A stretch of DNA of 64,000 nucleotides from Phenylobacterium sp. (GTDB lineage: Bacteria > Pseudomonadota > Alphaproteobacteria > Caulobacterales > Caulobacteraceae), in assembly GCF_016793225.1 (NCBI RefSeq), contig NZ_JAEUMN010000050.1, positions 81,911 to 145,910 on the forward strand, given 5' to 3'. Under the pieces are notes generated by a model that had not been told where the DNA came from, did not search any database, and saw nothing but the letters and a program-made list of their open reading frames with translations. Each line of letters opens with the position of its first letter. Position 1 is the first letter of the stretch. Made by a program: the position numbers and the translations under genes. Positions 16,122 to 45,932 of the stretch are shown piece by piece.

Positions 16122-16193
16122 GGCCGGCCGCCGCGCGCGAAAGCCCCTGATGGCCGCTTGCCACGTTCCGACTTGTTGCCTAGGCGAAGCCGC

Positions 16194-17693
16194 ATGAACG
16201 CGGCGAGTGAACCGCGCGCCGATGTGACCGGGCGCTGGAACCGGGCGGCCGGTTACGTGGCCGCGGCGGTCGCCGTTGCGGCGGCCGTCGGCGTGCGCCT
16301 GCTGCTGGATCCGATCCTGCAGGACGACCTCTCGTTCCTGCTTTTCGTGCCGCCGCTGCTGGTCGGCGCGGCCATCGGCGGGATGGGTCCGGCGCTGCTC
16401 GCCGGCGGGCTCTCGCTGGCCCTCGGAGTCGGCATCGCGGGATTCCCGAACGCGGACGAGCCGGACGGCCTCGTGCGCATGCTGATCTTCGCCGCCCTCA
16501 CCCTGGCGGTCGGCGGGTTCGGCTCGCGGATGATCCACAGCCGCCGCGCGGTCCAGCGCTACGTCGACGACCTGCAGGCCCGCGAGGCGCACCTGCAGTC
16601 GATCCTCGACACCGTGCCCGACGCCATGATCGTCATCGACGACCACGGGCAGATCGTGTCGTTCTCGAGCGCGGCCGAGCGTCAGTTCGGCTGGACCTCG
16701 GCCGAGGTGATCGGGAAGAACGTCAGCATGCTCATGCCCGACCCCTACCGGTCGGCGCACGACAGCTACGTCGACCGCTACAAGCAGACTGGCGAGCGGC
16801 GGATCATCGGCATCGGGCGGGTGGTCGTGGGCGAGCGGAAGGACGGCTCCACCTTCCCGCTGGAGCTCGCGGTCGGGGAGATGCGCTCGGGCGACCGGCG
16901 CTACTTCACCGGCTTCCTGCGCGACCTCACCGAGCGGCAGGCGGCCGAGCGGCGCCTCCAGGACCTGCAGGGCGAACTGGTGCACGTCTCGCGGCTGACG
17001 GCCCTCGGCGAGATGGCCTCGGCGCTGGCGCACGAGCTCAACCAGCCCCTGACCGCGGCCACCAATTTCATGAAGGGCTGCCTGGTGCTCATCAAGCGCA
17101 AGCCGCTGGACGAGGCCCGGCTCGAGCAGATGATCTCCCAGGGCGCCGACCAGGCGCTGCGCGCGGGGCAGATCATCCGCCGCCTGCGCGACTTCGTGGC
17201 CAAGGGCGAGGCCGAGCGGCGCATCGAGAGCCTGCCGAAGCTGCTCGAAGAAGCCGGCGCGCTGGCGATGGTGGGCGCCCGGGAGCGCAGCATCCGACTG
17301 CGCTACGACATCGAGCGCAGCGTCAACCTGGTCCTCGCCGACAAGGTCCAGATCCAGCAGGTGGCGCTCAACCTCATCCGAAACGCCATCGAGGCGATGG
17401 AGGAATCGCCGCAGAAGGACCTCGTCGTCGGCGCGAGGCCGGCGCCCGAGGACATGGTCGAAGTGTGGGTCAGCGATACCGGCCACGGGATCAGCGCCGA
17501 GGCGGCCGAGCAGCTCTTCCAGCCCTTCATGACCACGAAGAGCCACGGCATGGGCATCGGTCTTTCCATTTCGCGTACGATCATCGAAGCTCACGGCGGT
17601 CGGATCTGGGTCGAGCCCAACCCGGCGGGCGGGGCCATCTTCCGGTTCACGCTTCGCGGCGTCAGTCCCGAGGAGCTTCTCGACCATGAGTGA
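16194..17693 (+). CDS. fixL: Oxygen-sensing haem-PAS histidine kinase FixL
   Basis: Sensor kinase of 499 residues. The N terminus has about four membrane segments (residues 20-110). The haem PAS domain (about 130-250) has the proximal histidine H189 in YRSAHDSY and the distal arginine R209 in GIGRVV, as in rhizobial FixL. The kinase core follows with phosphoacceptor H280 in [10 protein letters not shown], then an N box ([11 protein letters not shown]) and G boxes ([15 protein letters not shown]). Low oxygen releases kinase activity toward FixJ. The ATG at 16194 gives the full membrane region; its stop overlaps fixJ by eight bases. Confidence 0.95.
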
Positions 17694-18294
17694 CGCGGTC
17701 GTACACCTGATCGACGACGACGAGGCGATCCGGGTCTCCCTTGGGTTCCTGCTGGAGATGAACGACCTCCCGTCGCAGACCTATGCGTCGGCCGGCGAGT
17801 TCCTGGAGGTGGCCGGGACCCTCGAGCGCGGCTGCATCGTCACCGACGTCCGCATGCCCGAGATGAACGGCCTGGAGCTGGTCAAGCGGCTGAAGGAAAT
17901 GAACGTCGCCCTTCCGGTCATCATGATCACCGGCCATGGCGACGTGCCGATGGCGGTCGAGGCCATGCGGGCGGGCGTGGTCGACTTCATCGAGAAGCCG
18001 TTCGAGGACGAGACGCTGCTCAGGTCGATCCAGTCGGCGCTGAACCTGGGCGCGGAGACCGGCGCGCAGGCCCAGGAGCGGAAGCACTTCGAGGAGATGC
18101 TCGCCACGCTGTCCGGCCGCGAGAAGGACGTCCTGCGGGGCGTCATCGCGGGGAAGATGAACAAGGTCATCGCCTACGAGCTGGGCATCAGCCCGCGCAC
18201 GGTCGAGGTCTATCGGGCGAACGTCATGAGCAAGACCAAGGCGAGCGGGCTCTCCGAGCTCGTGCGGATCGCCCTGCTTGCGGGCTTTTCGTGA
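17686..18294 (+). CDS. fixJ: Response regulator FixJ
   Basis: Two-domain regulator of 202 residues. The receiver (1-120) has acidic pocket D10-D12, phosphoacceptor D54 in [10 protein letters not shown]82-type switch in MITGHGD and lysine in IEKPF. A LuxR-type HTH (about 138-198: [26 protein letters not shown]) completes it. The layout and length match FixJ exactly. It overlaps fixL by eight bases, so the pair is co-translated. Its expected target is the fixK promoter. Confidence 0.95.
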
Positions 18295-18297
18295 CGT

Positions 18298-18311
18298 TTG
18301 CTTAAGATCAA
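18298..18311 (+). promoter_or_regulatory. FixK-type box before the receiver gene
   Basis: TTGCT-TAAG-ATCAA differs from TTGAT-N4-ATCAA only at one inner base of the left half-site. It starts three bases after the fixJ stop and 36 bases before the start of the single-domain receiver, so this gene can be induced by FixK separately from fixLJ. Confidence 0.72.
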
Positions 18312-18346
18312 GGCCCCCGCTGCGGCGTCCGCTTAGGCTCGGTTCC

Positions 18347-18736
18347 ATGGATCAGAGCCTCAGCCGTCCGCTGATCGTCGTCGTCGATGACGACCTCGCC
18401 GTCCGGCGCTCGCTGGAGTTCGCCCTCGACCTCGAGGGTTTCGCCGTCGAGACCTACGAATCCGGCGAGGCTCTGCTGCTGCGCAACGCCGGCCAGACGC
18501 CGGCCTGCCTGGTGCTCGACGAGCGGCTGCCCGGGGTGTCCGGGCTCGGGGCCCTGCGCCAGCTTCGCGCGCGCCACGCCGAGACGCCGGCGATCCTGAT
18601 CACCAGCCACCCGGGGCCGCGCCTGCGCGAAGCCGCGGCCAGCGAAGGCGTGCCGATCCTCGAGAAGCCCCTGCTGAGCGAGACGCTGGTGGCGGCCATC
18701 CAGGCGGTGGCCGAGGTTCCCCACGACCTCCGCTGA
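18347..18736 (+). CDS. Single-domain response regulator, FixT-like candidate
   Basis: Receiver-only protein of 129 residues, with no output domain. Canonical residues are kept: D14-D16 acidic cluster, phosphoacceptor D58 in LVLDERLPG, ITSHPG and the lysine in LEKPL. Start at 18347 is taken instead of an upstream one inside fixJ. Caulobacter has a FixK-induced single-domain receiver, FixT, that inhibits FixL. Position after fixLJ and a FixK box make this a functional analogue candidate, but with only one Cys (residue 54) a cysteine-ligated cluster like that proposed for FixT is unlikely. Confidence 0.82.
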   Translation: MDQSLSRPLIVVVDDDLAVRRSLEFALDLEGFAVETYESGEALLLRNAGQTPACLVLDERLPGVSGLGALRQLRARHAETPAILITSHPGPRLREAAASEGVPILEKPLLSETLVAAIQAVAEVPHDLR

Positions 18737-29633: not shown

Positions 29634-30401
29634 ATGGACCGGCTGAAGAAGAAGGTCGCCGTGGTCACCGGCGGCGCGCTCGGACTGGGGCGCGCCACGG
29701 CCATCCGCATGGCCGAGGAAGGCGCCGCCGTCGCCATCTGCGACGTGCTGCTGCCCGAGGCGAATACGCTGGCGGACGAACTGGCCGCCCGAGGCTTCGA
29801 GGCCTGCGCCTGGCGGCTGGACGTGTCGCGGGAAGGCGACGTCGAGCGCACCCTCAACGACATCGCGCGGCGCTTCGGCCGGATCGACGTCCTGGTGAAC
29901 AACGCCGGCGTCGCCGGCGCCAACAAGCCCACGGACATGCTCACCGAGGCCGAGTGGGACTTCGTCCAGGCGATCAACGTCAAGGGCGTCTTCTTCTGCA
30001 CCAAGCACGTGATCCCGCACCTGCGCCGCAGCGGCGGCGGCAGCATCATCAACCTGTCGTCGATCTACGGCCTGGTCAGCGCGCCCGACGTCCCGCCCTA
30101 TCACGCGTCCAAGGGCGCGGTTCGGCTGATGACCAAGACCGACGCGCTCCTCTACGCGCAGGAGAAGATCCGGGTGAATTCGATCCACCCCGGCTTCATC
30201 TGGACGCCCATGGTGGAGGGCTACCTCAAGGACCAGGAGGATCCCGCCGCGGCCCGGCCCCTGGTGGACGCCCTGCACCCGCTGGGCCACATGGGCGAGC
30301 CCGACGACATCGCCTGGGGCTGCGTCTACCTCGCGTCGGACGAATCCAAGTTCGTCACCGGCGCCGAACTCGTCATCGACGGCGGCTACACGGCGCGGTG
30401 A
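29634..30401 (+). CDS. SDR family NAD(P)-dependent oxidoreductase
   Basis: Classical short-chain dehydrogenase of 255 residues. Cofactor motif TGGALGLGRA is near the N terminus, NNAG follows, and the catalytic Ser-Tyr-Lys set is in NLSSIYG and PYHASKGAV. The start at 29634 has GGAGG upstream. Its TGA overlaps the GTG start of the next gene. Substrate unknown; cyclopentanol- or steroid-type dehydrogenases are similar. Confidence 0.92.
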   Translation: MDRLKKKVAVVTGGALGLGRATAIRMAEEGAAVAICDVLLPEANTLADELAARGFEACAWRLDVSREGDVERTLNDIARRFGRIDVLVNNAGVAGANKPTDMLTEAEWDFVQAINVKGVFFCTKHVIPHLRRSGGGSIINLSSIYGLVSAPDVPPYHASKGAVRLMTKTDALLYAQEKIRVNSIHPGFIWTPMVEGYLKDQEDPAAARPLVDALHPLGHMGEPDDIAWGCVYLASDESKFVTGAELVIDGGYTAR

Positions 30402-30826
30402 GGGCCGTGCCCGCCTTCAGCCTCCCGACCCTGCTGCGCGCCGTGGCGCTCTGGCTCCTGCTCATGGCGGCCGAGAGCGCGCAGGGCGCGATGCGCGAGT
30501 GGCTTTTCGGACCCGACATGGCGTTCGCGGCGCGGCAGGCGGCCGTCGTGGTCGGGACAGGGGTCATCGTCCTGATCTCGTGGGTGAGCCTGAAGTGGCT
30601 GCGCCTCCGCAGCGACGCCGCGGCCCTGGCCGTCGGCGCGCTCTGGGTGGCGCTCACCGTCGCCTTCGAAGTCGCGCTCGGGCGCGCGCTTGGACTGAGC
30701 CAGGAGCGGATGCTGGAGGACTACGACCTCCTGCGCGGCGGCCTCATGCCTCTGGGCCTGCTCGCGATGGGGGCGACCCCCTTCGTGGTGCGGCGGCTGC
30801 AGGCGCGCGGCGAGGGCCGGACATGA
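30398..30826 (+). CDS. Hypothetical integral membrane protein
   Basis: Protein of 142 residues with about four hydrophobic segments (LLRAVALWLLLMAAES, AAVVVGTGVIVLISWVSL, ALAVGALWVALTVAFEVALG and GLMPLGLLAMGATPFVV). The segment AFEVALGRALGLSQERMLEDYDLLRGGLMPLG is distinctive but I cannot assign it to a named family. The GTG at 30398 overlaps the upstream SDR stop (GTGA), so the two are coupled; a GTG at 30407 is an alternative. Confidence 0.72.
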   Translation: MRAVPAFSLPTLLRAVALWLLLMAAESAQGAMREWLFGPDMAFAARQAAVVVGTGVIVLISWVSLKWLRLRSDAAALAVGALWVALTVAFEVALGRALGLSQERMLEDYDLLRGGLMPLGLLAMGATPFVVRRLQARGEGRT

Positions 30827-30891
30827 CGCCTGCGCTCTCGTAGCGTCGGGCGGCCCTGGTCCTGAGCAGGGCGCCCGTCGCAGCGGGTCCG

Positions 30892-31620
30892 TCAGGCCGA
30901 GCTCACGCGGTGCGGATCGCGCCCGGGCCGGCTGGGCGCGCCCGTCCGCCGCGCACTGGCGCGCACGAGCAGCCCCAGCGCCTCAACCGGCGTCAGGCGA
31001 GCCGGCTGGAACCCGCCGCCGAGCGTCGAGTCCTCCAGGAGAGCCGCCATGGCCGGGTCGTCGCGGCTCAGGCAGACGTCCCACCCGTCGAAGAGGTTGG
31101 CCAGGATCGGCTCGGAGGAGACGACCGTGAAGGGGCCGTCGGGCGGCAGGCTCGCCACGCCGCCGTAGTAGCGCTGCACCGCCTCGCGGGGTCCTTCGAG
31201 GACGTGCAGCAGTTGTCCGTCCAGCGCCAGCGCGAAGCCGCTGAGACCTTCGGGCGGCCGGGGGCTCATCAGGCGCGCGATCCCCGCAGCCGTCACACTG
31301 CCCCGGTAGATCAAGCGTTGCCGGTTGGTGGGTGACGGGCCCGCCGCGCCGTCCCGCGCGGAAGGTTCGTCGGCGACCCTGCGCCACACCCCCTCGGCGC
31401 CCGATTCCGACTCGAAGCGGATGCCCAGCGCCTCGAACGCCTCGCTGATGGCGTTCAGCGTCCTGACATTGGCGTTCACCTGGCCGCGGATGTTCTCCAG
31501 GCGCTTGATGGTCTCGACGCTCAGGCGCGTCAGCCTGGCGAGATCCGCCTGCTCCAGGCGCGCGAGCGCCCTCGCCGCCCGCAGCTGTTCGCCGCTGAAC
31601 CCGATCGTACGGTACGGCAT
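30892..31620 (-). CDS. XRE-HTH plus degenerate BLUF-domain regulator
   Basis: Protein of 242 residues. Residues 8-70 form an XRE/Cro-type HTH (LEQADLARLTRLSVETIKRL). Residues 100-185 match a BLUF domain: Y105 in RLIYRG, then GFALALDGQLLHVLEGP and W180 in FDGWDVCL. The flavin-contacting Gln is replaced by H139 and the Asn position by about R121, so FMN/FAD photochemistry is probably lost or altered. A conserved tail (FQPARLTPVEALGLLVR) matches its paralogue at 32167. An ATG at 31635 could add five residues. Confidence 0.82.
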   Translation of the reverse strand: MPYRTIGFSGEQLRAARALARLEQADLARLTRLSVETIKRLENIRGQVNANVRTLNAISEAFEALGIRFESESGAEGVWRRVADEPSARDGAAGPSPTNRQRLIYRGSVTAAGIARLMSPRPPEGLSGFALALDGQLLHVLEGPREAVQRYYGGVASLPPDGPFTVVSSEPILANLFDGWDVCLSRDDPAMAALLEDSTLGGGFQPARLTPVEALGLLVRASARRTGAPSRPGRDPHRVSSA

Positions 31621-32166
31621 GGCGGCTACCCGCATCCGGGCGACAGGTGGCGACGGCCGTGGGCCCGGGCGATCGCCGACACCGGGCCAGGACGCCGCCT
31701 GTGTTCGTCCGAAGGATCGAGGATCGAGGCCGCGGCTGGGAATGACATCTCGTGCTCTCTGGTCGTCGGGAGACACGCCGCTCACGTCATGGACCGCCGC
31801 GTCCCTCCCGAATGGGGGGGTAAGCCAGCCCGTCTGACGCGGGCCTGGGGCACCGACCCGGCCGCTCGCGCGTCCGGCGCGCGCACGTTTCGAAGAGAGA
31901 GTCCGGCAGCTTGCGCCCAGCCCCCTCGGGTCCTCTCCCGCGCCTCTCTCGGGCGCAGTTCGCGAACCCTCTACGCACGTCGCTGCGCAACGAAGTGCGG
32001 TGATTTGGCGGTCACAGAAGGGGGCAGTTTCGCGCGGACCGCGCGGAGTCCGCGAGGTCGCGGAGCGGACCTGTGCCACAGGGGGTATCGCTGACACTCA
32101 GACTGCTTTGCCTTACACTTGGAGCGTCATTCCACCCGGGTGCGCGACAGAATGTCGCGCTGCGTG
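31621..32166. other. Intergenic region between the two XRE-BLUF genes
   Basis: No convincing gene on either strand; open frames here have poor composition and no family match. Around 31700-31750 the sequence looks like degraded extragenic repeat (GGATCGAGGATCGAGGCCGC, GGGAATGACA). The promoter of the downstream regulator should lie within about 150 bases of 31620. Nothing else is recognised. Confidence 0.5.
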
Positions 32167-32952
32167 TCAGAGGGGCTCGCGCTCCCGCGTCCTGCGCGTG
32201 GACGCCGCTGGACGAACGTCGGCGGCATCCCCCTGGCGATCGCGCACGATGGTCAGGAGACCCAGCGCGGTGGCCGGCGACAGCGAGTCCGGACGGAAGC
32301 CGTCCCGCAGCGCGGGCTCGCGCGCGAACACCTCGTCGTCCGCGGCGATCACCCCGTGGCACATCGGCCAGTCCGCGAAGTTGCGGCCGGCGATCGACCG
32401 CCGCTCGACCACGGTGATGTTGCTGTGACGCGGATCGCAGGAAATGGCGCCGAACACGCGCAGGACGACGTCATCGGGCCCCTCCAGCGCCTGCAGGAAC
32501 CGCCCGTCGCAAGCGAGCAGAGCGCCCGTGACTCCGCGTTCCAGGTTGCGCGGGGCGGCGACGTCGACGATCCGCGCCAGCCCGGCCTCGGTCTGGTCCC
32601 GCGGGTCGACGCAGATGCTGTGGTAGATCAGCCGGCACAGCCCACCGGAAGCGCTTGTCCGCGCCGGAGTTCGTCCCCGCCCAGGCTTCACCGGCGCGCC
32701 GCCCGGGGGCAGCCGGCAAACGCCCAGCCCGCTCTCGCATATGTCGAAGACGACGCCGAGGTCGGCGAACGCCCCCGTCAGCGCGATGACCGTTCGGCTG
32801 TTGGCCTCGACCGGACCGTGGGTACGCTCAAGTCGCTTGATCGTCTCGAGACTCAGCCCGCTGAGGCGCGCGAGCTCGGTCTGCTCGATCCGCATGAGCG
32901 CCCGCCCGGCGCGGATCTGTTCGCCCGTCAGAGCGGATCTAGCCGACCACAT
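32167..32952 (-). CDS. XRE-HTH plus BLUF photoreceptor regulator
   Basis: Protein of 261 residues, apparently a one-component blue-light regulator. The HTH is at about 10-70 (EQTELARLSGLSLETIKRL). The BLUF domain spans about 105-205. The key residues of the AppA pocket are all present with near-identical spacing: Y110, N136, Q154, W195 and M197 (AppA Y21, N45, Q63, W104, M106). Motifs VTGALLACDGRFLQALEGP and PRHSNITVVERR are typical BLUF. The tail FRPDSLSPATALGLLT is shared with the paralogue. Light would alter flavin hydrogen bonding and hence DNA binding or dimerisation. GGGGGG lies just before the ATG. Confidence 0.88.
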   Translation of the reverse strand: MWSARSALTGEQIRAGRALMRIEQTELARLSGLSLETIKRLERTHGPVEANSRTVIALTGAFADLGVVFDICESGLGVCRLPPGGAPVKPGRGRTPARTSASGGLCRLIYHSICVDPRDQTEAGLARIVDVAAPRNLERGVTGALLACDGRFLQALEGPDDVVLRVFGAISCDPRHSNITVVERRSIAGRNFADWPMCHGVIAADDEVFAREPALRDGFRPDSLSPATALGLLTIVRDRQGDAADVRPAASTRRTREREPL

Positions 32953-33360
32953 GGCGCCCCCCGATCACCGCGCCGGCCGTCACGGTCGGACGGGTGCGAC
33001 CAGATGGCGCAACCGGCCGCGCGGACGCAACGCGTTGAATCGCGGAGCTCGGGATTCCGTGCAGCCTATTCAAGGACATACGCTTCACAGCCGTATCGCG
33101 GACCCCCTTTCGATGTTTATCGAATGGCGCGCGCGATCAACTTAGATAAGCACAAAAATACCCCTAAGGTGCACCTCGGTACCCGATATGGGTAATTACC
33201 AGATCCCATCTTCATGATATTGAGACCTAATCTCACGGATACTCAAAATGAGCTTTAGAATGCCTTTACCGTGCACCTGCGATCTACCCGAACACAGGAT
33301 CGGGTCGCGCACGCCTTAGGTGTCTCCAAACCCGCCCTGACGTTCGAGAGAGGGGCAGGC
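32953..33360. promoter_or_regulatory. AT-rich divergent regulatory region with clustered palindromes
   Basis: Between the divergent XRE-BLUF gene and cheB. From about 33040 base composition drops well below the neighbourhood. Several short inverted repeats are packed in 90 bases: AGGTGCACCT (33167-33176), TACCC-GATAT-GGGTA (33180-33194), GGTAATTACC (33191-33200), TGAGA-CCTAA-TCTCA (33221-33235) and CTCA-AAA-TGAG (33242-33252). GTGCACCT recurs at about 33270. No gene is supported here. Likely a multi-operator promoter region. Confidence 0.6.
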
Positions 33361-34479
33361 ATGGTGTCGAGTACCGCAGGGGCGATCGCGGCGCAGCGAT
33401 CGGCTCGGGTGATGGTGGTCGACGACTCGGCGATCGTGCGTGGGCTCATCTCCCGCCATCTCGGCGCGGCGCCGGGAATCGAGGTCGTCGGCACCGCGGC
33501 CAACGGCGAGATCGCCCTGCGCGAACTGCATCGGCATCCGGTCGACGTGGTGATCCTCGACCTCGAGATGCCGGTGATGGACGGCATGACGGCCCTTCCC
33601 CGGATCCTGGCCGAGCACCCCAAGACCCGCGTGATCATCGCCTCGACGCTCAGCCTGCGGAACGCCGAGATCAGCCTGCGCGCCCTGCAGCTCGGGGCGA
33701 GCGACTACGTGCCGAAGCCCGAAGGCGGCCTGGCCAGCGCCGAGTCGTTCCACGACGAACTGGTCATGAAGATCCGGGCGCTCACCGGGGTGTCCGAACG
33801 GCGCGCCGAGGCCCGGCCGCCCCCGGCCGCGAGGCCTGCCCCCGCGCCGGCGGCGGCGACCCCGGCGCCCGCCGTCGCCGCCGTCCGCGGCCCACGCCTG
33901 AAGCCCACGGTGCTGGCCATCGGCGCGTCGACAGGGGGCCCGTCGGCGCTGACGCGCTTCTTCGAGTCCATCCGCGGCGCGATCCACCAGCCGATCCTCT
34001 TGACCCAGCACATGCCCGCGACCTTCACCTCGCTTCTGGCCGAGCAACTGTCGCGCGCCGGCCAGCGACCGTGCAGCGAAGCCCGCGACGGCGAGCCGCT
34101 GCGCCAGGGTCACTGCTACGTCGCCCCGGGGGGCTGGCACATGGTGGTGGCCCGCGAAGGCGCCATGCCGGTCATCCGCCTGAACCAGGAGCCGCCGGAG
34201 AACTTCTGCCGGCCGGCCGTGGATCCGATGCTGCGCAGCGTCGCGGCCTATTACGGACCCTCGGCGCTCGCCATCATCTTCACCGGCATGGGATCCGACG
34301 GCGCCAAGGGCTGCCAGGCGATCGCCCAGGCCGGCGGACGTTTCATTGTGCAGGACGAAGCCTCAAGCGTCGTCTGGGGTATGCCCGGCGCCGCGGCGGC
34401 GACCGGCTTGGCTGAGGCGGTGCTGCCGCTCGAGCAGATCGGCCCGTGGGCTCGCCGCATCGCTGGAGCGCCGGAATGA
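33361..34479 (+). CDS. cheB: Chemotaxis protein-glutamate methylesterase CheB
   Basis: Two-domain protein of 372 residues. The receiver (1-130) has phosphoacceptor D67 in VILDLEMPVMDG. A proline-alanine linker (about 148-175) leads to the methylesterase domain with catalytic Ser in IGASTGGPSAL, His in LLTQHMP and Asp in FTGMGSDGAKG. It removes methyl groups from chemoreceptors and deamidates glutamines. The start at 33361 has GAGAGGGG upstream. It overlaps cheR by four bases; no other che gene is in the window. Confidence 0.94.
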   Translation: MVSSTAGAIAAQRSARVMVVDDSAIVRGLISRHLGAAPGIEVVGTAANGEIALRELHRHPVDVVILDLEMPVMDGMTALPRILAEHPKTRVIIASTLSLRNAEISLRALQLGASDYVPKPEGGLASAESFHDELVMKIRALTGVSERRAEARPPPAARPAPAPAAATPAPAVAAVRGPRLKPTVLAIGASTGGPSALTRFFESIRGAIHQPILLTQHMPATFTSLLAEQLSRAGQRPCSEARDGEPLRQGHCYVAPGGWHMVVAREGAMPVIRLNQEPPENFCRPAVDPMLRSVAAYYGPSALAIIFTGMGSDGAKGCQAIAQAGGRFIVQDEASSVVWGMPGAAAATGLAEAVLPLEQIGPWARRIAGAPE

Positions 34480-35312
34480 TCGACCCCGACTACGAAAACT
34501 TCTGCCGGCTGGTCCGCGACCGCTCGGGCCTCGTCCTCACGCCCGCCAAGGCCTACCTGGTCAACAGCCGCCTCGAACCCGTCGCGCGCGGACTCGGGCT
34601 GGCCGGGGTGCCGCAGCTGCTGGCTCAGCTCCGCGCCGGCGCCGCCTCCTCGACGATCGACAGGTGCGTCGACGCCATGGCCACGCACGAGTCCTCGTTC
34701 TTCCGCGACGCCGCGCCGTTCGAGCAGCTCGCCAAGACGGTCCTTCCGCCGCTGATCGAGGCCCGGCAGCACACCAAGCTGCTCCGCGTCTGGTGCGCGG
34801 CGTGTTCCAGCGGCCAGGAGCCCTACTCGGTGGCCATGGTGCTGCAGGAGATGGGTCCGCGCTTCTCCGGCTGGCGGCTGGAGATCACCGCCACGGACAT
34901 GTCGGAGAGCATCCTGCGCAAGGCGCGCGCCGGCATCTACAGCGACTTCGAGGTCCGCCGCGGCCTGTCCCCCGAGCGCCTCTCACGCTGGTTCACCCGC
35001 AAGGGCGAAGCCTGGGAGGTCTCGTCCACCCTGCGCGCCATGATCCAGTTCCGGCCGCACAACCTGCTCGCCGGGTCCAAGGGGCTGGGCGTGTTCGACG
35101 TGATCTTCTGCCGCAACGTGCTCATCTACTTCGACGTCGACCGCAAGCGGCAGGTGCTGGGCGAACTGGCCCGCGCGCTGGCGCCCGACGGCAACCTGTT
35201 CCTCGGCAGCGCCGAGACGGTGCTGGGCGTCACCTCAGACTTCGAGGGCGCGCCGGGCTCACGCGGTCTCTATCGCCTTCCGCGCCTGGTCGCCGCCGCC
35301 AAGTCGGCCTGA
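34476..35312 (+). CDS. cheR: Chemotaxis protein methyltransferase CheR
   Basis: SAM-dependent methyltransferase of 278 residues that methylates chemoreceptor glutamates. The N-terminal all-alpha domain carries THESSFFRDAAPFEQL. The SAM site is WCAACSSGQEPYSVAM, and the late NVLIYFD motif is conserved. The ATG overlaps the cheB stop (ATGA), so both are made in fixed ratio. This is an orphan cheB-cheR pair rather than part of a full cluster. Confidence 0.94.
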   Translation: MIDPDYENFCRLVRDRSGLVLTPAKAYLVNSRLEPVARGLGLAGVPQLLAQLRAGAASSTIDRCVDAMATHESSFFRDAAPFEQLAKTVLPPLIEARQHTKLLRVWCAACSSGQEPYSVAMVLQEMGPRFSGWRLEITATDMSESILRKARAGIYSDFEVRRGLSPERLSRWFTRKGEAWEVSSTLRAMIQFRPHNLLAGSKGLGVFDVIFCRNVLIYFDVDRKRQVLGELARALAPDGNLFLGSAETVLGVTSDFEGAPGSRGLYRLPRLVAAAKSA

Positions 35313-45002: not shown

Positions 45003-45932
45003 TCAGCGTGGCCCGGCCGCCACCGACCGCCAGTGGTCGAGGGCTTCGGGGATGTCGGGAAGGTTGGGCAGCGTCCGCACGCCGGGCGCGGGCCCGACGT
45101 GGGCCGCGCTGGCGCCTCCGGCCCAAAGCTCGGTCTCCGGGGGCAGCGCGGCGCGCAGGTCGGCGGCGGCGCGCCGCGCGGCCTCGGCGGGAACCATGGC
45201 CGAGAACGAGACCGCGACGACGTCGGCCCCGTGGGCGCGGGCGGCCGCGACCACCTCGGCGGGCGGCGTCTCCGCGCCCAGCGAGAGGCACCGGGCCCCG
45301 CCCAGGGCCAGCAGGCACTCGGCCATCAGCAGCCCCAGCGCATGGGGCTCGCCGGGGAGCGTGGTGAGCAGGACGCGCGGCCGGGCGGCCGCCGGCCGCG
45401 GCAGGCCGTCCAGCGCCCCGCGGAGGATCCGCACCAGCTGCTCGGTGAACAGGTGCTCCTCGTAGACCTGCAGCCGCCCGCCGATCCAGGCCTCGCCCAC
45501 GGCGCGGGTCAGGGTCGCCACATTGTCCTGGACAAATCTCGCGAGGCCCTGGGCGTAGATCGCCGACTGCATCAGCTCGCGCAGCCCGTCCACGTCATGC
45601 CGCCGCAGACGGTCCAGCGCATCCTCCACCCAGGCTCCGGCCTCGCCGTCGTTGGCGGGCGAGGGCGTCAGCAGCCGGGCGACCAGGTCTTCCCGGCTCA
45701 GCGGCGCGAGGCGGGCGGGCCGATCCCCGTGGTCGATCAGGGTCTTCATCAGCCTGAGCTTTTCCACGTCTTCGGCGGTGTAGAGGCGGTCGCCCGCAGC
45801 GTCGCGCACCGGCGAAGGGAAGCCGTAGCGCCGCTCCCACACGCGCAGGGTCTCCTTCGCGACGCCGCTGCGGCGCTCGGCTTCCCCGATAGGGATCAGG
45901 CCCGCGGGCTCGGATTTTGGCGACACATTCAT
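45003..45932 (-). CDS. MerR-family B12-binding regulator, CarH/LitR type
   Basis: Regulator of 309 residues. N-terminal Mer[31 protein letters not shown]-type sequence, residues 15-40. The middle helical domain has the light-cap motif W149-x9-E159-H160, diagnostic of CarH/LitR adenosylcobalamin photoreceptors. The Rossmann B12 domain has E195-x-H197-x2-G200 (GEPHALG), giving the lower axial His. In the dark such proteins bind DNA as tetramers; green or blue light breaks the Co-C bond and releases DNA. A perfect palindrome abuts its start codon and overlaps its ribosome site, implying autorepression. Confidence 0.9.
45523..45535. promoter_or_regulatory. Intragenic copy of the 13-bp palindrome
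   Basis: TTGTCCTGGACAA, identical to the site at 45934, inside the CarH/LitR-type gene where it encodes part of RFVQDNV. Flanking bases (CAT before, AT after) are also shared with the intergenic copies. It may be a secondary operator. Confidence 0.6.

Follow-up and report, generated by a model that had tools for sequence, protein, structure and literature searches.

Two paralogous open reading frames on the minus strand of the window analysed here, a stretch of 64,000 nucleotides from Phenylobacterium sp., each combine an XRE-type helix-turn-helix with a BLUF domain, as an earlier note made from the letters had claimed. It seems rather probable to us that one of the products, protein A, is a one-component autoregulator of chemosensory (che) genes which acts through the 15-bp palindrome TACACCTNAGGTGTA and to which the BLUF domain has been added as a sensor. 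The second product, protein B, retains the helix-turn-helix and has a degenerate BLUF part. The coordinates of these features and of their neighbours are collected in Table 1.

Table 1. Features of the XRE-BLUF locus (positions of the window)
Feature	Position	Strand	Remark
Protein A, XRE-BLUF fusion, 261 aa	32167-32952	-	photocycle residues intact
XRE-type helix-turn-helix and beta hairpin, A residues 8-80	32713-32931	-	
BLUF domain, A residues 105-201	32350-32640	-	profile, alignment, model
C-terminal helix, A residues 226-245	32218-32277	-	model; region also matched by short BLUFs
Predicted operator TGCACCTTAGGGGTA (minus-strand reading)	33159-33173		A-cheB gap, 206 bp before the ATG of A
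Weaker operator-like site, score 12.0	32114-32128		A-B gap, ahead of the long leader of B
cheB, receiver and methylesterase	33271-34479	+	divergent from A; real start possibly further in
cheR, methyltransferase	34446-35312	+	
Protein B, paralogue, 242 aa	30892-31620	-	helix-turn-helix kept; BLUF degenerate (N, Q, M lost)

The N-terminal part of A has about the length of one entire short XRE protein; it scored 15.1 bits against HTH_3, under the Pfam cut-off of 23, and the fusion relative L063 reached 28.3 bits with a helix-turn-helix profile whose cut-off is 27. The BLUF part matched the Pfam model over residues 105-197 with an E value of 4e-23 and 81.8 bits (cut-off 25), and phmmer aligned A with the PDB sequences of BlrB, Tll0078 and AppA. 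All five residues named in the earlier note, Y110, N136, Q154, W195 and M197, are present and align to AppA, where we take them to correspond to Y21, N45, Q63, W104 and M106 (AppA numbering). An AlphaFold2 model from an alignment of 26 sequences (mean pLDDT 85.1, pTM 0.60) shows two confidently predicted domains joined by a loose linker, residues 87-100 having pLDDT below 50; the helix-turn-helix consists of helices 10-20, 24-31, 35-43 and 52-64 followed by the hairpin 67-80, and the BLUF strands and helices 105-201 are followed by the further helix 226-245. The best Foldseek matches in the PDB were Tll0078/TePixD (1x0p, 8i98), and Slr1694, BlrB, AppA and BlsA came next. With 1x0p the predicted model gave an E value of 1.8e-11 and a TM of 0.86 by target, thus recovering the ferredoxin-like BLUF fold, and PixD-type proteins were matched across about 140 columns. 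No HTH-BLUF chain occurred among the best 50 Foldseek PDB matches. The C-terminal helix said to be shared by A and B does exist, but it is not peculiar to them, since the stand-alone BLUF proteins found in the genus match A as far as residue 240 or further. Light sensing is, on this sequence evidence, a likely candidate function of A.

The same does not hold for B. It scored 26.8 bits with HTH_31 (cut-off 27) and 19.3 bits with BLUF (cut-off 25), the latter over profile positions 33-90 only, so that the profile search bore out a BLUF domain in A but left B under the cut-off. Identity between B and A is 58% in the helix-turn-helix (42/72) and 30% in the BLUF part (26/86), and the five photocycle positions of A are occupied in B by Y, R, H, W and V. 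Given the loss of N, Q and M, B is probably light-blind and no second working photoreceptor, and the description of the two proteins as a blue-light pair finds no support in that form. A tandem operon of two photoreceptors was likewise rejected, since B lacks key residues and the gap between A and B measures 546 bp. The open reading frame of B extends to 32097, which would give a protein of 401 aa; this reading was rejected because of the codon composition. GC by codon position is 0.74, 0.72 and 0.69 in 31621-32097 as compared with 0.73, 0.55 and 0.91 in the body of B, and a third-position value of 0.69 versus 0.91 suggests that the extension is hardly coding in this frame; the start of B is most likely 31620 or 31635. 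A third fusion in the same genome (C121:4176-4895, locus L038) is also degenerate: it shares 57% identity with A in the helix-turn-helix and 26% in the BLUF part, scores 36.4 bits with the BLUF profile, above the cut-off of 25, and of the photocycle residues keeps only Q. The BLUF tree places B beside the third copy as its sister (94/86, branch not starred).

Similar decay is seen elsewhere in the family. Seven of the 18 aligned fusions (A, L034, L035, L036, L076, L062 and L063) retain the complete set of Y, N, Q and W. At least one is lost in the other 11, B included, and these losses are spread over several parts of the tree. The four positions read Y/R/H/W in B, V/L/Q/R in the third copy, F/N/Q/W in L070, Y/K/S/W in L071-L073, F/Q/Q/L in L074, C/H/H/F in L180, Y/H/Q/F in L177 and L075, and F/Q/Q/W in L077; among the 11 intact-frame fusions near che genes, B excluded, the set is complete only in A and L034. 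Light sensing would therefore be limited to A and some relatives at most, and a retention of seven in 18 argues against an exclusively photic role. Nine of the 18 fusions (L034, L070-L075, L177 and L180) have in common the motif C-x5-C-[LM]-D-x2-C near the C terminus, and all of these except L074 carry W/F-x2-CCG past the place of the BLUF tryptophan; A and B have neither motif. These cysteines might form a metal or redox site, for which the Cys-rich tail of AppA offers a comparison.

The fusion is rare in the genomes searched. Both domains were matched at E<=1e-25 in 14 of 390 family genomes (G000, G010, G024, G068, G759, G554, G662, G654, G582, G692, G563, G585, G617 and G599), and four of the 101 genomes inside the genus bear fusions. 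The earlier note's view that a direct XRE-BLUF fusion is unusual thus agrees with the search for the same architecture, and no such fusion was met in the literature searches. There are 19 fusion loci in all, three in the own genome, G000 (4.6 Mb, 197 contigs, with a single short BLUF on C173 and a single short XRE on C102 in addition), and a pair in each of G010, G024 and G068. The che-linked fusion of G024 (L037, 6532-7321) has a frameshift between helix-turn-helix and BLUF, which may be a sequencing error or a real loss. Of 94 relatives in named records, 80 were kept; those with both domains belong to a Caulobacter sp. metagenome-assembled genome (L070), six Brevundimonas records (L071-L075 and L077), including B. 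abyssalis and B. bullata, an uncultured Caulobacterales (L076) and, twice, Phenylobacterium kunshanense (L078, L079). Outside G000, no both-domain match was found in the class sample (n=385) or the phylum sample (n=398) among the at most seven candidates scored per genome. The query of the named-record, family, class and phylum searches was the short alignment A2, which consists of intact members only and in which the photocycle residues look invariant, so that fusions with a strongly altered BLUF may be undercounted. No plasmid record spanned 80% of A, and the IMG/VR search returned a single relative, HTH-only. Plasmids of Methylobacterium, as well as phages infecting Rhodobacter and Azospirillum, carry relatives of the helix-turn-helix alone; a tblastn search of phages with the helix-turn-helix of A at E 0.01 gave six records, from the latter two hosts, with no Caulobacter phage among these. 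Two apparent fusions were discarded: a match on a Sphingobium plasmid straddles two different open reading frames, and the match in the class genome G309, over positions 3-118, comes from a frame of 93 codons that encodes only a helix-turn-helix and precedes a transporter-like open reading frame.

A tree was built from 63 BLUF domains; all 18 fused rows lie inside one supported group of 20 (97/95), whose two other rows are the BLUF piece of the frameshifted L037 and the long-branch short BLUF L061. Since the fused BLUF domains cluster, a single fusion event is the simplest reading and a likely one, and the XRE protein probably acquired BLUF on a single occasion inside Caulobacteraceae.

Most fusion copies adjoin chemosensory genes, several of them divergent from cheB. 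In L034, L037, L070 and L075, which span Phenylobacterium, Caulobacter and Brevundimonas, tblastn revealed the order cheA-cheW-chemoreceptor-cheR-cheB, a divergent XRE-BLUF gene and a PAS hybrid histidine kinase; the chemoreceptor of L034 contains globin and PAS domains. Partial arrangements occur elsewhere, with cheB and the kinase in L071, cheY, cheA, cheW and the kinase in L073, a different che cluster (29-44% identity) and the kinase in L074, cheB-cheR in L077, the kinase only in L072 and cheY-cheA-cheW in L038, while the fusions of L177 and L180 lie about 7.5 kb away from cheY. L063 has a kinase and a chemoreceptor-like stretch (35%) and no che gene, and in L035, L036, L062 and L076 tblastn with the che, kinase and chemoreceptor queries found nothing. 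By eye, no kinase stands next to A in the window; a sensor-kinase-like open reading frame followed by two FixJ-like response regulators was seen at 16158-18736 (plus strand). A tRNA-Ser gene (L038, 3791-3880) and a tRNA-Gly gene (L072, 6648-6722) lie shortly 5' of XRE-BLUF genes, at about 110 bp or more (start unsure) and 278 bp, respectively, and are possibly old insertion points.

The CheB of the A locus was found in nine of 101 genus genomes (E<=1e-70), and members of the XRE family (E<=1e-8) in seven of these nine as against nine of the other 92, an association of XRE presence with che cluster type that is partly confounded by descent. The seven genomes with both have either the fusion (G000, G010, G024) or a BLUF-free short XRE (G063, G115, G120, G121), which in G121 occupies the same position, divergent from cheB. 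The last case suggests that the XRE gene may predate BLUF at the cheB locus, the BLUF domain having been added to it. Small Cys-rich open reading frames directly after cheR (L065, 3938-4543; L239, 8994-9599) were seen by eye where the XRE is BLUF-free.

The palindrome TACACCTNAGGTGTA, initially spotted by eye in 19 upstream regions, lies 5' of ten of the 19 fusion genes and of a few stand-alone short XRE genes. Leave-one-out scoring recovered it in all ten sequences used (shuffle p 0.003-0.04), and a de novo palindromic search of the ten fusion upstreams returned TACACCTnAGGTGTA with a log-likelihood ratio (LLR) of 92.6, as compared with a mean of 36.0 and a maximum of 42.6 in 20 shuffles. In nine of the fusion upstreams the site starts 36-43 bp ahead of the start codon, 21-28 bp from the gene. 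The site of A begins 221 bp before the start codon, and this distance makes its use for A less sure; inserted DNA is possible at 31621-32113 and 32953-33158, the sites of A and B being 206 and 493 bp from the coding starts. For the other nine fusion genes no site was detected in the 320 bp upstream; in four of them (the third copy, L062, L063 and L076) the start is unsure, since the position taken lies near the helix-turn-helix and is no start codon. In a scan of 190 upstream regions (open reading frames of at least 120 codons) at 19 loci, all selected for an XRE or XRE-BLUF gene, ten scored at least 10; all ten precede XRE-BLUF, cheB, cheY, kinase or chemoreceptor genes or the response regulator adjoining the L076 fusion, and five of the ten sites lie outside the motif training set. 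Extra sites include a second, tandem one in L037, one between cheY and cheA in L038, and others before the chemoreceptor gene of L034 and the kinases of L071 and L075. Among 15 short XRE genes, four have sites with p<0.05 (G121 21.4, G095 16.5, G115 10.8 and G120 8.2) and 11 have no significant site; in G095 the site accompanies the short XRE though the CheB of the A locus was not found there. The conserved palindrome thus speaks for A as a candidate DNA-binding autoregulator.

Some sites and searches fall outside this pattern. An even-width first motif search of the ten regions was abandoned, having produced a mixed AT-rich motif in the wrong register (79.8 versus a maximum of 67.9 in 12 shuffles), and apparent sites in L083, L084 and L091 proved to be codons just 5' of the helix-turn-helix, with none left once these were excluded. 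A genome-wide regulon was not borne out, the degenerate pattern giving six sites versus seven for a reversed control. Loci of short BLUFs from other organisms contained ten sites of at least 12 in 818,772 bp. Besides that of A, four sites above 11 exist in G000, all inside predicted open reading frames, the call for the one in L202 being weak; this site (L202 1501-1515, G000:C80:3585-3599, score 15.6) begins 26 bp before an open reading frame that by eye resembles a metal-transporting ATPase and is a possible target. In G692, whose fusion locus yielded no che gene, a site scoring 17.6 (L252 6309-6323, equal to L076 8509) is flanked by a LuxR-type response regulator on one side and, as judged by eye, a set of ABC-transporter-like genes on the other, adjoining the fusion. 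Rfam gave no match at gathering score over 30000-34000, and a sigma-70 and terminator scan returned two promoter-like matches, both on the plus strand.

The palindrome also lent itself to an advance prediction, namely that the cheY-cheA promoters of G010, G024, G759, G617, G582, G585 and G120 would score at least 10. Five of the seven did so (G010 12.9, G024 13.7, G759 19.4, G582 18.1 and G585 18.1). The two exceptions were G617, whose stretch lacks the cheY-cheA pair in question, and G120, which has a short XRE only and carries cheY and cheA on one strand. The cheY-cheA promoter of G563, examined after the prediction, has a site of 12.6. Thirty cheY promoters were scored, from 64 matching among 388 family genomes. 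Sites of at least 10 were found in seven of 11 fusion genomes (not in G654, G599, G662 and G692), in one of four with a short XRE only and in none of 15 in which neither form is known (top score 9.9), although the last group may contain undetected short XREs, chiefly outside the genus. Fisher's test of 7/11 versus 0/15 gives p 0.0005, which is no strict probability because the genomes are related. A de novo search of the eight cheY promoters again returned TACACCTnAGGTGTA (LLR 72.6; shuffles mean 35.3, maximum 43.9), a rediscovery that is not wholly independent since these eight were picked for a first-motif score of at least 10.

These observations can be read in other ways. The fusion may regulate the che cluster while in most members its BLUF domain no longer senses light and serves for dimerisation or responds to something else, for instance redox state or flavin level, the residues of A being kept by descent only. 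The repeated losses described above, the Cys motifs in nine and eight of 18 fusions and the possible presence of a globin-PAS chemoreceptor in the cluster would all suit such a role. Yet A has neither Cys motif, and L034, L035, L036, L076, L062 and L063 keep Y, N, Q and W at only 35-47% BLUF identity to A, which suggests selection for the photocycle; we regard this alternative as rather unlikely. Alternatively, the palindrome could be the site of another che regulator, of which the XRE-BLUF gene is one target only. This would account for the nine of 19 fusion genes without a nearby site and for sites ahead of che and kinase genes. It is an improbable reading in view of the sites before some short XRE genes, including that of G095 in a genome without the CheB of the A locus, and of the 15 cheY promoters, none reaching 10, from genomes where neither XRE form is known. 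Finally, A and B could be what is left of XRE repressors of the mobile-element or toxin-antitoxin type and be unconnected with che genes. Antitoxin and phage repressor models were indeed matched weakly, and there are the HTH-only relatives on plasmids and in phages. The recurrent cheB-adjacent place in three genera and the common motif argue against this, no toxin gene was seen adjoining by eye, and we give this origin hardly any credence.

Returning to a one-component autoregulator of che genes, from the computed domains, residues, neighbourhood, motif and its distribution we infer the following course of events. XRE proteins usually bind palindromes of such kind as dimers, and the helix-turn-helix of A, which has stand-alone relatives in the genus, would bind TACACCTNAGGTGTA in this form, both in front of its own gene and at the cheY-cheA promoter of a chemosensory cluster. 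A would most likely act as an (auto)repressor, a role which the nine sites just ahead of a start codon appear to fit. Its intact BLUF domain would bind FAD, and blue light would alter the hydrogen bonds around Q154 and Y110. In AppA and PixD, it is established that the BLUF signal passes via the glutamine and strand 5 to C-terminal helices; in A, strand 5 with W195 and M197 may similarly move, together with the C-terminal helices, and DNA binding would change as a result, in whichever direction, the signal probably reaching the helix-turn-helix across the loose linker through a changed dimer. B and the third copy, with their helix-turn-helix kept, would be light-blind paralogues that perhaps occupy the same sites. 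The earlier proposal of a one-component light-controlled repressor is thus favoured by the fusion, the residues of A and the palindrome, but in its photic part it can extend at most to A and some relatives. More tentatively, and with a little less than even confidence, it may be envisaged that such a BLUF repressor lets light set the transcription of cheYA and cheBR and not swimming directly, that in this genome a light-sensing protein and its two light-blind paralogues are rivals for the same operators, and that BLUF was grafted once onto a short XRE already present at this locus, where G121 still has the BLUF-free form.

A would not necessarily be the only photoreceptor of the region: 12 kb away, at 45003-45932 (minus strand), Pfam identified a MerR-type helix-turn-helix with B12-binding_2 and B12-binding domains, an architecture that we take to resemble the light-dependent repressors LitR and CarH, and the product is a possible second one.

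If the favoured reading is correct, BLUF has gained a direct DNA-binding output, for which no example was found in the literature searches, and blue light is tied to the make-up of the chemosensory system, so that light may alter what the cell senses. The predicted 15-bp operator and target genes make this testable in a single reporter strain, the family offers natural, probably light-blind versions for comparison, and a compact one-component BLUF repressor could serve as an optogenetic part.

From residue 105 onward (105-201 and beyond), A is like AppA, PixD/Tll0078, Slr1694, BlrB and BlsA in sequence and predicted fold. Those proteins work through partner proteins or stand alone; A, by contrast, carries its own DNA-binding domain. 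In EL222, a LOV domain with different photochemistry and fold is joined to a LuxR-type helix-turn-helix. The likeness to A is that EL222, according to PMC4844311, is a one-component blue-light DNA-binding protein. The same paper puts BLUF proteins at 64% short and 34% with EAL. The BLUF passages of PMC9614035 name no BLUF-HTH protein, and no XRE-BLUF or HTH-BLUF fusion appears in the titles and abstract openings of the open-access papers listed. Other XRE regulators are described in PMC10688885, where RtrA, RtrB, CdxA and CdxB of Caulobacter and the phage protein TgrL form heteromers and regulate surface attachment; the word BLUF is absent from the main text of that paper. In BluF/BluR of E. 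coli, as described in PMC3509220, blue light also reaches a repressor through a BLUF domain; there, however, the task is divided between two proteins, with a degenerate EAL domain and a MerR-like repressor, whereas A would combine both functions in one protein, with an XRE helix-turn-helix.
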